NCBI GenBank assembly: GCA_902558375.1
Contig: CACEDQ010000009.1
Location: 1-46,394, forward strand
From: an uncultured SAR86 cluster bacterium
Lineage (GTDB): Bacteria; Pseudomonadota; Gammaproteobacteria; Magnimaribacterales; D2472
Direction: 5' to 3'
Length of the DNA: 46,394 nucleotides
A program made the position numbers and the translations under genes. The notes beneath the pieces are model-generated. The model searched no databases. It was given only the letters and a program-made list of their open reading frames with translations, and was not told where the DNA came from. Positions 40,014 through 44,004 of this stretch are shown here, one piece after another; position 1 is the first letter of the stretch, and each line of letters starts with the position of its first letter.

Positions 40014-42146
40014 GTGGAAAATAATAAATTAGAATCTACATCGGTAGAATTTCAGTATGGAAATAAATTAGTAAAATTAGAAACAAATAAAGTTGCAAGA
40101 CAAGCTACAGCTGCAGTTGTTGTAACAATAGATGATTTGGTTGTTCTTACAACTGTAGTCGCAAAAAAAGAAGCAGATCCTGGAAAAGATTTTTTTCCGT
40201 TAGCTGTATTTTATCAAGAAAAATTTTATGCAACAGGTGTAATTCCTGGAGGTTTTTTTAAACGAGAGGCTAGGCCCACTGAAAGAGAAACATTAACATC
40301 GAGGCTAATTGATAGACCTATTAGACCTTTATTCCCAGAAGAGTTTAAAAACGAGGTTCAGGTCTTTTCAACAGTGATGTCATCAGGTAAAGATCAAAAT
40401 CCTGATATAGCTGCCATGATTGGTGCTTCAGCAGCTCTATGTGTAGCAGGTGTTCCTTTCGATGGACCTATGGGTGCTGCTAGGGTGGGGTTCATAGATG
40501 GTAACTACGTTTTAAATCCGACATTTGCGGAGCTAGAAGAGTCATATCTTGATATGGTTGTAGCTGGAACTGAACAAGCGGTTCTAATGGTTGAGTCCGA
40601 GGCAAAAGAATTAAATGAAGATCTTATGCTTGGTGCGGTATTATTCGGCCATCAAGAAATGCAGGCAGTTATAAGTGCTTGTAAGGAGCTTAAAGATAAA
40701 GCAGGAAAAGAAGACTGGGTCATTACACCAGATGAAGAATCTCCAAGATATTACTCAGAGTTACAAGAAAAATATACTGACCAAATTAAAAATGCTTTTA
40801 CTATAAAGCTTAAATCCGAGAGATCTGAGGCTATAAGTAAAATTAGAGAAGATATTGTTAATTCATATCCTGAAGCTGATGACATTCAATTAGGAAAAGT
40901 TTTAGGCGCTTTTAAAAATCTAGAAAAGGACATAGTTAGACAAAATATTTTAAGTAATCAGCCAAGGATTGACGGGCGAGATACAGATACAGTTAGACCA
41001 ATTTTTATCGAAACTGATGTTTTACCAAGCACTCACGGATCATCTTTATTTACAAGAGGTGAAACACAAGCAATTGTTGTTGCAACATTAGGCTCATCAA
41101 GAGATGCTCAAAGAATTGAAGCTATTGAAGGTCAAGGAACTGACAATTTTATGCTGCATTATAATTTTCCAGCATACAGTGTTGGAGAAATAGGAATGCC
41201 AATGGGTCCAAAAAGAAGAGAAATTGGACATGGAAATTTAGCAAAAAGAGCTATTAAAGCTGTATTACCGGATGTAACAGATTTTGGATACACGATGAGG
41301 GTAGTATCTGAGATTACTGAATCTAATGGTTCAAGTTCAATGGCATCAGTTTGTGGAACCTCCTTATCATTAATGGATGCTGGAGTTCCTATCTCAAGTC
41401 CAGTTGCAGGTATAGCAATGGGGCTAATTAAGGAAGGTGATGACTTTGCAGTGCTTACTGATATTCTGGGTGATGAAGATCATTTAGGTGATATGGATTT
41501 TAAAGTAGCCGGAACAGAAACAGGTATTACTGCTCTTCAAATGGATATTAAAATCCAAGGTATAAACGAAGCTATTATGGAAGTTGCTTTAACAAAAGCA
41601 AAAGCTGCAAGGACTCATATTCTTGGAATAATGAACGAAGCTATTTCAGCTCCAAAGGATTTATCTGAAAATGCCCCTGCAATGAAAACTTTTATGGTTG
41701 ATAAAGATAAGATCAAAGAGATTATCGGTAAAGGCGGAGCAGTTATAAAATCAATGCAAGAAAAAACAGGGGCAACAGTTGATATTGATGATGATGGAAC
41801 TGTTTCTGTGTTTGGCCAAAATCAGTCTTCAATGAAAGCATGCCTTGAAATAATTGAGGGTATTTTGGAGGAGCCTGAGCTTGATAAGGTATATAAAGGT
41901 ACTGTTGTAAAGATTGTTGATTTTGGTGCCTTTGTAAATATTTTGCCTGGTAAGGATGGATTGTTACATATATCTGAAATTGCTCATGAAAGAACAGAAA
42001 ATGTTAGTTCTGTGCTTACAGAAGGACAGGAAATTGATGTGAAACTCATAGGTTTTGATAGGGGTAAGATGAAATTATCTGCCAAGGCCTTAATCAAAAA
42101 AGCAAATATTGACGATTCTGAAGCTGAAGATAGTCCTGAAGAATAA
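40014..42146 (+). CDS. pnp: Polyribonucleotide nucleotidyltransferase (PNPase)
   Basis: A 3'-5' phosphorolytic exoribonuclease of the degradosome. In 710 residues: first RNase PH domain ([20 protein letters not shown] with RPIRPLFP), an alpha-helical linker, second RNase PH domain ([36 protein letters not shown]), KH domain with [13 protein letters not shown] (near 565), and an S1 domain ([20 protein letters not shown]). The start is GTG at 40014 after an AGGA. An intrinsic terminator lies 20 bases downstream. Confidence 0.97.
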
Positions 42147-42166: not shown

Positions 42167-42198
42167 AAAACCGAAATGTCAAATTTTCGGTTTTTTTT
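42167..42198 (+). terminator. Intrinsic terminator of the rimP-pnp operon
   Basis: AAAACCGAAA (42167-42176), an 8-base loop, TTTCGGTTTT (42185-42194), with the T run continuing to 42198. It lies 20 bases after the pnp stop. Confidence 0.85.
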
Positions 42199-42280
42199 GT
42201 TCACAAAATTTGAATCCTTTCTCTTTTTATGGTCTCATGTAGGCTGCAAATCATAAATAACCTAATAGGGGGGAATAATT

Positions 42281-42502
42281 ATGCGAGCAATTGATACATT
42301 AAAAGATATAGTAGCTGACTTAACATCACTATTAATTGGTGTTGTTGGTTTAGGTGTTGTAGCAGGTATTGTATTTGGCGGTAACGTAGCATTTTTCAAC
42401 GATGTTCTTGATGGACTAATGGGAGTTGTTGCAACGCTAGGAGAAAATGGATTAGTAGGACTTTTAGTGGCTGCTATTCTAATTGGTTTACTTAATAAGT
42501 AA
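42281..42502 (+). CDS. Small two-helix membrane protein, paralogue 1 (unknown)
   Basis: I do not recognise this 73-residue protein. It has an amphipathic N-terminus (about 1-14) and a Gly/Val-rich membrane helix (about 17-34) ending in FGG. A short loop with FFNDVLDGL follows, then a second helix (about 47-71) and the ending NK. It aligns without gaps to the next gene product over 73 columns with 21 identities (about 29%). The ATG has a very strong ribosome site: an A followed by six Gs (42267-42273) seven bases upstream. No signal peptide cleavage site is visible. High expression is inferred. Its two-helix hairpin size resembles VirB2-type pilins or holins, but nothing else supports either. 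Confidence 0.75.
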   Translation: MRAIDTLKDIVADLTSLLIGVVGLGVVAGIVFGGNVAFFNDVLDGLMGVVATLGENGLVGLLVAAILIGLLNK

Positions 42503-42512
42503 TCTCTAAAAA

Positions 42513-42538
42513 TAAGAAGGGCCTATAGGCCCTTCTTA
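42513..42538. terminator. 26-bp perfect palindrome, probable bidirectional terminator
   Basis: TAAGAAGGGCC, loop TATA, GGCCCTTCTTA. As RNA, an 11-pair stem on either strand. On the + strand an A run precedes and the 3' arm is T-rich (CTTCTTACTTTAAC). On the minus strand TTATTTTTAG follows, a better T tract. It separates the paired small genes and ends eight bases before the second start codon. Confidence 0.65.
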
Positions 42539-42546
42539 CTTTAACA

Positions 42547-42777
42547 ATGAAATATAAATCATTTCTAAATTCTATAAAAGATTTTTTTACACGACTAACA
42601 GATGTGCTAGTACCAGTAGTTTCTGTAGCTTTATTATTAGGCGTAATTTTTGGTCCAGATGCCCCTTTTATAGGAGATGTATATAAAAACCTATCAGATC
42701 TTTTAAACTTAATCGGTACTGATGGAATTCTTGGTTTAGTATCTATAATTATAATTTTAGCTTATCTTAAGAAATAA
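42547..42777 (+). CDS. Small two-helix membrane protein, paralogue 2 (unknown)
   Basis: A 76-residue paralogue of the previous gene product, with three extra N-terminal residues and otherwise a gap-free match. Conserved columns include the KD and LT of the N-terminal helix, VV, GVIFG against GIVFG, the F-x2-DV-x3-L in the loop, the G-x2-G-x2-GL segment, and the terminal Lys. Hydrophobic helices lie at about 19-36 and 60-73. Unlike its neighbour it has no Shine-Dalgarno: the 3' arm of the palindrome ends eight bases before the ATG. It may be expressed at a much lower level, or by reinitiation. It ends seven bases from the elongator tRNA-Met, which is on the other strand. Function unknown. Confidence 0.7.
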   Translation: MKYKSFLNSIKDFFTRLTDVLVPVVSVALLLGVIFGPDAPFIGDVYKNLSDLLNLIGTDGILGLVSIIIILAYLKK

Positions 42778-42783
42778 AAGAGT

Positions 42784-42860
42784 TGGTGGCTATGGGTGGA
42801 ATTGAACCACCGACCCCAGCGTTATGAGTGCTGTGCTCTAACCATCTGAGCTACATAGCC
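42784..42860 (-). tRNA. Elongator tRNA-Met (CAU)
   Basis: A 77-base minus-strand tRNA with CCA encoded. The acceptor GGCTATG pairs fully with CATAGCC, so it is not an initiator; the anticodon loop is CTCATAA. It resembles E. coli metT rather than the CAU tRNA-Ile (whose acceptor is GGCCCCT). An elongator tRNA-Met beside ychF is also found in Pseudomonas. Confidence 0.93.
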
Positions 42861-42915: not shown

Positions 42916-44004
42916 TTAAACATTAAACTTAAAATGAATTACATCACCATCTTTTACAATATAATCTTTTCCTTCGAGCCTTAATTTACCTTTTTCTTTT
43001 GAACCAGACTCTCCATTGCATGAGATGTAGTCCTCAAAACTAATTACTTCGGCTTTTATAAACCCTCTTTCAAAATCAGTATGAATGACTCCTGCTGCAT
43101 TGGGTGCAGTTGAGTTATTCTTAATGGTCCATGCTCTTATTTCCTGAGGTCCGGCAGTAAAATATGTTTGAAGTCCAAGAAGTTCATATCCTTTAAAAAT
43201 AATTTTATTTAGAACAGGCTCATCCATATCCATTAATTCTAAATATTCTTTTCTTTCCTCATCATCCAAAATAGATATCTCTTGCTCAATCTTAATTGAT
43301 GTTGGTATAACTGTATTGCCTGATAGATTTGCAAATTCTATTAATTTTCTTAGAGCATCATCTGAAGATCCATTATCAGAAATATTTGCAATATAAAATG
43401 TTGGCTTAGAGCTAAGTAATTGAAAATTTTTAATAATTAACTTTTCCTCTTCATTGAAACCTTCGATATTTATAAGTCTTCCTTGATCAAGTTCGCTCTT
43501 AATTCTTAATAAGACCTCATGTTCAGTCTTATTTTTTTTATCGTTGGTTTTCAGAAGTTTTTCACATTTTAATATTCTTTTACTGACCGTTTCTAAGTCA
43601 GACATTATTAATTCAAGATTGATTATTTCAGCATCTCTTACCGGGTCAATCGATCCATCAACATGAGTAATATTTTCATCTTCAAAACACCTTACAACAT
43701 GAGCTAAGGCATTCATCTCTCTGATATTAGAAAGGAATGCATTGCCTAAACCCTCTCCTTGAGAGGCGCCTTTTACAAGGCCTGCAATATCCACAAGGTC
43801 TAGGCTTGCTGGAATTATCTTTTTTGAATTTACGATATCGTTTAGTTGCTTCAATCTATTATCTGGAAGAGGGACCTTTCCAACATTGGGTTCTATGGTA
43901 CAAAAAGGAAAGTTTTCTGCAGGTATTGAAGATTTAGTTAAAGCATTAAAAAGAGTGGATTTACCTACATTTGGAAGCCCAACAATACCGCATTTAAATC
44001 CCAT
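42916..44004 (-). CDS. ychF: Ribosome-associated ATPase YchF (OLA1 family)
   Basis: Obg-like P-loop protein that prefers ATP and binds ribosomes; linked to oxidative stress control. In 362 residues: Walker A GLPNVGKS (9-16), the FPFCTIEPNVG switch, DIAGLVKGASQGEGLGN, a coiled-coil insertion (about 140-200), and a C-terminal TGS domain with AWTIKNNSTAPNAAGVIHTDF and the KDYIVKDGDVIHFKFNV ending. The start is one base after the pth stop. The family residue NxxE in place of NKxD is the known reason for ATP use; here the segment is not fully clear. Confidence 0.95.
   Translation of the reverse strand: MGFKCGIVGLPNVGKSTLFNALTKSSIPAENFPFCTIEPNVGKVPLPDNRLKQLNDIVNSKKIIPASLDLVDIAGLVKGASQGEGLGNAFLSNIREMNALAHVVRCFEDENITHVDGSIDPVRDAEIINLELIMSDLETVSKRILKCEKLLKTNDKKNKTEHEVLLRIKSELDQGRLINIEGFNEEEKLIIKNFQLLSSKPTFYIANISDNGSSDDALRKLIEFANLSGNTVIPTSIKIEQEISILDDEERKEYLELMDMDEPVLNKIIFKGYELLGLQTYFTAGPQEIRAWTIKNNSTAPNAAGVIHTDFERGFIKAEVISFEDYISCNGESGSKEKGKLRLEGKDYIVKDGDVIHFKFNV

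Follow-up and report, generated by a model that had tools for sequence, protein, structure and literature searches.

Why should a SAR86 bacterium keep two adjacent genes for small, related membrane proteins between pnp and a tRNA gene, and what might the two products do together? The genes lie in what we call the window, which is the whole 46,394-nucleotide stretch of DNA that was analyzed, and which near-identical loci identify as SAR86. A literature search found no publication on the pair.

A tandem pair of paralogues downstream of pnp

The features of the locus to which we refer throughout are as follows:

40014..42146, + strand: pnp (polynucleotide phosphorylase), the upstream neighbor, conserved in SAR86 families f1 and f2
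42167..42194, + strand: terminator-like hairpin of pnp, the upstream boundary of the gene A transcription unit
42267..42275, + strand: strong ribosome-binding site of A (AGGGGGGAA), SD:anti-SD -11.0 kcal/mol, with a G-run conserved across SAR86 loci
42281..42502, + strand: gene A, a predicted 73-residue two-helix membrane protein with a glycine-rich first transmembrane helix (TM1)
42513..42538, + strand: A-B intergenic RNA hairpin, with an 11-bp stem and a TATA loop, -18.8 kcal/mol
42547..42777, + strand: gene B, a predicted 76-residue two-helix membrane protein, paralogue of A, which starts 9 nt past the hairpin and has no ribosome site
42784..42860, - strand: tRNA-Met (CAT), the convergent neighbor downstream of B
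42916..44004, - strand: ychF-like GTPase gene, the next neighbor downstream

The original prediction described tandem paralogous open reading frames of 73 and 76 residues, set between the pnp terminator and tRNA-Met. Both elements of that description were confirmed: BLASTP aligns A with B free of gaps (21/70 identical, 42/70 positive, E 7e-12), a profile-profile comparison of the two families gives a probability of 99% over 74 columns (E 3.3e-18), and the pair is flanked by the terminator-like site at 42167-42194 and by the minus-strand tRNA at 42784-42860. Judged by these alignments, A and B are true paralogues.

The pair is ancestral to SAR86 and rare elsewhere

The search covered 61 genomes, namely that of the window and 60 relatives belonging to four families of the order. 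Both genes occur in 51 of them, adjacent to one another; for genomes of at least 90% completeness the proportion is 29 of 31. Profile searches detected no pair in the two other near-complete genomes (G038 and G053), so the pair is not strictly essential. In families f1 and f2 it follows pnp, and at the f3 and f4 loci that were read its neighbors are different genes. Its presence in 29 of the 31 near-complete relatives, which represent four families, taken with these different neighbors in f3 and f4, indicates from gene order that the pair is ancestral to SAR86 and has been relocated at least once, and that it is not a one-strain insertion. The proposal that the pair is a local insertion is therefore appropriate by comparison with other gammaproteobacteria, but not within SAR86, where it is ancestral and nearly universal. 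The original prediction had also staked itself on the existence of homologues under purifying selection; these are found across the order, with median pairwise dN/dS values of 0.31 for A and 0.37 for B (about 0.3-0.4), figures that are readable only as 'purifying' because dS is near saturation.

Outside the order, profile searches that covered 369 genomes from the class and 398 from the phylum found almost no relatives. Bearing in mind that this wider sample comprises about 770 genomes and one pattern scan of 84,980 species that required a single conserved stretch of A, diverged relatives may have been missed. Some of the few gammaproteobacteria with a relative retain the tandem layout. In G161 and G277, the second gene, after A, encodes a protein with a longer loop; at three other loci (L152, L154 and L155) A is followed by a protein of 209-221 residues, in which a putative coiled coil is flanked by two ends that match the B profile. 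The B-profile match of the second genes of these distant gammaproteobacteria is stronger than that of all 1000 locally shuffled versions, and the insert in the B loop would be periplasmic by the charge rule. The coiled-coil genes themselves (L152:436-1098, L154:5251-5913 and L155:5251-5907) look as if the B loop had gained a large periplasmic domain. L153 and G382 each have one A-type gene, standing singly. We also noted that in G285 a B-like hairpin protein (L240:5884-6435) is fused to a long lysine-rich C-terminal tail, which would be cytoplasmic by predicted topology, and that in one distant gammaproteobacterial genus the tandem pair (L241:3829-4409 and L242:4654-5298) directly follows genes that read as zapA-like and 5-formyltetrahydrofolate cyclo-ligase-like.

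Predicted topology and the search for a named family

Charged residues were counted in 83 A and 68 B proteins. TM1 is charge-free in both families, and TM2 is charge-free in B and nearly so in SAR86 A. The loop between them is acidic, with Lys or Arg in only 2% of A and 43% of B, while basic residues occur at the N-terminal end in 99-100% of proteins and at the C-terminal end in 66% (A) and 100% (B). This pattern predicts an N-in/C-in orientation. AlphaFold2 models B as two long helices (residues 2-35 and 42-74; pLDDT 87.9) and A as three helical segments (2-31, 37-55 and 58-72; pLDDT 79.7); pTM is low in both single-protein models, at 0.41 and 0.53. Taken together, charges and models argue strongly that A and B each form a helical hairpin oriented N-in/C-in, whose short acidic loop faces the periplasm. 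The two proteins differ in the glycine content of TM1, which in SAR86 is 3.1 residues for A versus 1.1 for B; in phage A it is 1.3. Thirteen A residues are 100% conserved in SAR86: L14, T15, L24, G25, A28, V31, F32, F38, V42, L53, G57, G60 and L61.

The original prediction knew of no named family that fits, and this was upheld in every library tried: Pfam, NCBIfam, PHROGs and PDB sequences gave no significant match to A or B, and fold searches gave no match. The weak names that did surface (DUF5989, E 0.008; TsoY, E 0.0097; Phage_holin_Dp1, E 0.081; KCNH channels, E 2.1) are far under curated cut-offs or at chance level. A potassium-channel arrangement of TM, pore helix and TM, to which an LGxxG motif before TM2 might allude, was rejected: the preceding Thr is variable, and GYG/GFG is absent.

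A strong ribosome site and a covarying hairpin

The predicted SD:anti-SD energy of A in the window, -11.0 kcal/mol, equals the median of 81 cellular A genes; the corresponding medians are -1.5 for B, -2.0 for the other long ORFs of the window, and -7.3 for phage A. Against a background of 422 long ORFs drawn from about 446 kb of the genome, only 5-7 attain this value (top 1-2%), which bears out the earlier description of this ribosome site as exceptional.

Another feature, absent from the original prediction, is the A-B hairpin at 42513-42538. It has a counterpart in 68 of 68 distinct loci, with every z below -3; compensatory changes affect 9 of its 11 pairs (15 sequences), and between clades the entire stem sequence is replaced while pairing is kept. 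Rfam contains no family for it. It is known, for example from pufBALMX, that hairpins of this kind can make the amounts of neighboring cistrons differ (PMC5927463), and we suggest that the A-B hairpin may be a puf-like dosage device, one that would favor A over B whether it terminates or protects the message. With the contrast in ribosome sites, the evidence argues strongly that A is made in large excess over B. The notion of a 'dosage-tuned pair' is thus well supported at the sequence level, by that contrast and by the covarying hairpin.

We also considered that the hairpin is merely the terminator of A, and that B is transcribed independently from a promoter of its own, in which case there would be no single dosage unit. 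Family f2 favors this explanation, in that a long T run follows its hairpin and its B has its own G-rich ribosome site. On the other hand, the window has no T run after the stem and most f1 loci are T-poor there (the mean over all loci is 3.9 T in 9 nt); a terminator scan of the region did not accept the hairpin, and a weak test found no promoter-like site on its + strand. Furthermore, B in f1 starts just beyond the stem, without a ribosome site. We consider an independent B improbable.

Phages carry A alone

An A-profile scan of viral contigs returned at least 120 relatives, of which 80 were kept; each of these loci has one A-type gene and none has a B-type gene. Scanning the same collection, from which the viral assignments are taken, with a B profile built from a narrower alignment also yielded no relative. 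Since phages carry the A type alone, A can probably work without B. No match to the family was found among isolate phages or plasmids, nor in the stretches read of Melnitz-3, HTVC008M and vB_ValS_X1.

The carriers are several unrelated kinds of phage. In T4-like carriers, the neighboring RNase H is nearest to those of Methylophilales phage Melnitz, cyanophages and HTVC008M, and the order is often nrdA, A, an iron-sulphur gene, nrdB and glutaredoxin (gene names from sequence). T5-like carriers have a terminase that is 50% identical to those of Demerecviridae phages; in two of them (L177:1984-2316 and L180:170-505) a small ORF with an MscS beta-domain (PF00924, E 5e-4, just over the cut-off) lies directly upstream of the A-type gene. 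The portal of a third group, to which 28 contigs belong in a further scan, is only distantly like those of known phages; here a holin gene and a gene for M15 endolysin or DUF5675 precede A, often together with one for a small, secreted protein that is barrel-like. The latter, a recurrent protein of 130-137 residues with the look of a small outer-membrane barrel, is encoded directly upstream of A in L270, L272, L273, L281, L282, L283, L286 and L287, and had no Pfam or PHROG match among the barrel-like proteins tested.

At loci L157-L159, phage A groups inside SAR86 A with moderate support, in a tree of 74 columns many of whose forks lack resolution. In L158 and L159, A is near a gene for a Gcw_chp-type protein. 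The ClpP gene of L159 gave no indication of a SAR86 host, the identity to SAR86 ClpP being 50-58%.

This distribution bears on the idea that A and B serve as small accessory subunits in a larger respiratory, transport or rhodopsin-associated membrane complex. Accessory roles of this kind are known for many small membrane proteins, and the near-universality of the pair in SAR86 is as expected of such a role. However, the cellular neighbors are translation and RNA genes, and are different in f3 and f4; A occurs alone in several unrelated phage kinds, and it would appear to be expressed in excess. We therefore doubt this explanation.

A possible two-subunit assembly at the inner membrane

We hypothesize that one small inner-membrane assembly contains both A and B as subunits, which would have become distinct before SAR86 diversified. 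A, with its glycine- and alanine-rich helices, would be present in large excess and self-associate through glycine-rich faces, and B, the minor subunit, would serve to cap, anchor or modulate it. The very strong ribosome site of A would set dosage together with the A-B hairpin, which would end or protect the A message such that little B is made. The assembly may act on the permeability or integrity of the inner membrane, and phages may acquire only the A type, as a module active on the envelope. Our best reading, to which we give a probability of roughly 0.35, is accordingly of an oligomer made mainly of A, with B as a minor subunit, that acts on membrane permeability or integrity. Both the oligomer and its function were proposed with the gene neighbors in phages as a guide, and we put forward the oligomerization of A and an envelope role of the pair only tentatively. 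In favor, phage A in some groups has endolysin and barrel-like genes, or an MscS-like domain, as its neighbors. Against it, these neighbors vary by phage kind, T4-like phages put A among nucleotide-reduction genes rather than lysis genes, and phage A is less glycine-rich in TM1.

A more specific alternative is that A is a miniature channel, mechanosensitive-type or holin-like, which forms a gated pore with B as the gate or inhibitor; this layout is comparable to MscL or to holin and antiholin. The predicted N-in/C-in hairpin, the N-terminal helical segment and the glycine-rich TM1 are as in MscL, and phage copies adjoin an endolysin or MscS beta-domain ORF. MscL itself is found in 0 of 41 SAR86 and related genomes, versus 10 of 14 control genomes, from which the channel gains a little; however, its loss is unsurprising in an ocean of constant osmolarity, and 37 of the 41 genomes keep MscS. 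In addition, there is no similarity to MscL or to any holin profile, the lysis cassette of the phage already includes a separate holin, and a lethal pore would not be expected to have expression that looks strong and constitutive. We consider such a gated pore unlikely.

Returning to the assembly of A with minor B, the pair is unnamed and near-universal in SAR86, it has a very strong translation signal, and its A half also occurs in marine phages of several kinds; this points to an envelope process relevant to both host and virus. It is conceivable, albeit speculative, that A and B represent a new family of small assemblies, either membrane pores or membrane guards, the A half of which is carried and used by several unrelated marine phage groups; if so, this pore or guard family would be conserved in a bacterial group that is among the most abundant of the ocean. 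Now that a cultured SAR86 isolate, HIMB1674, has been reported (PMC11582366), the pair is open to direct testing.

Comparison with known systems

ATP synthase subunit c resembles A in being a strongly translated two-helix hairpin with a glycine-rich TM1. However, the predicted topology of A and B is inverted and there is no profile match; instead of the conserved acidic TM2 residue of subunit c, the mean number of Asp plus Glu in TM2 is 0.11 for A and 0.00 for B.

Phage holins (e.g., PF11351 and phrog_3427) are likewise small phage-encoded membrane proteins, and in one phage group the order holin, M15 endolysin, A gives A an endolysin neighbor; this lysis-cassette context is absent from the T4-like, T5-like and SAR86 loci. 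A differs in having a separate holin in that cassette, in being a conserved host gene in SAR86, and in having no significant holin-profile match (none in PHROGs; the best in Pfam is that to Phage_holin_Dp1, from 1 of 22 family members).

MscL (PF01741) is an N-in/C-in hairpin with an N-terminal helical segment and a glycine-rich TM1. By charge pattern and models, A and B are also predicted to be two-helix subunits in the N-in/C-in orientation, with a glycine-rich first helix in A. They are about half the length of MscL, with no sequence or structural match and no conserved MscL motif seen; the MscL profile did not match A, B or 22 family members, with E 10 / E 1 as the upper limits.

In the Rhodobacter puf operon (pufBALMX), as in other protective-hairpin operons, small membrane proteins come first, a stable hairpin follows the abundant cistron, and the downstream product is made in smaller amounts (PMC5927463). 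Here neither protein is related to those of the antenna or reaction centre, and the second is a paralogue of the first. As to the T run of an intrinsic terminator, the stretch after the hairpin is T-poor in the window and most f1 loci and T-rich in f2. A stable conserved hairpin between cistrons was found at all 68 loci, with a median z of -7.1 and compensation at 9 of the 11 pairs.
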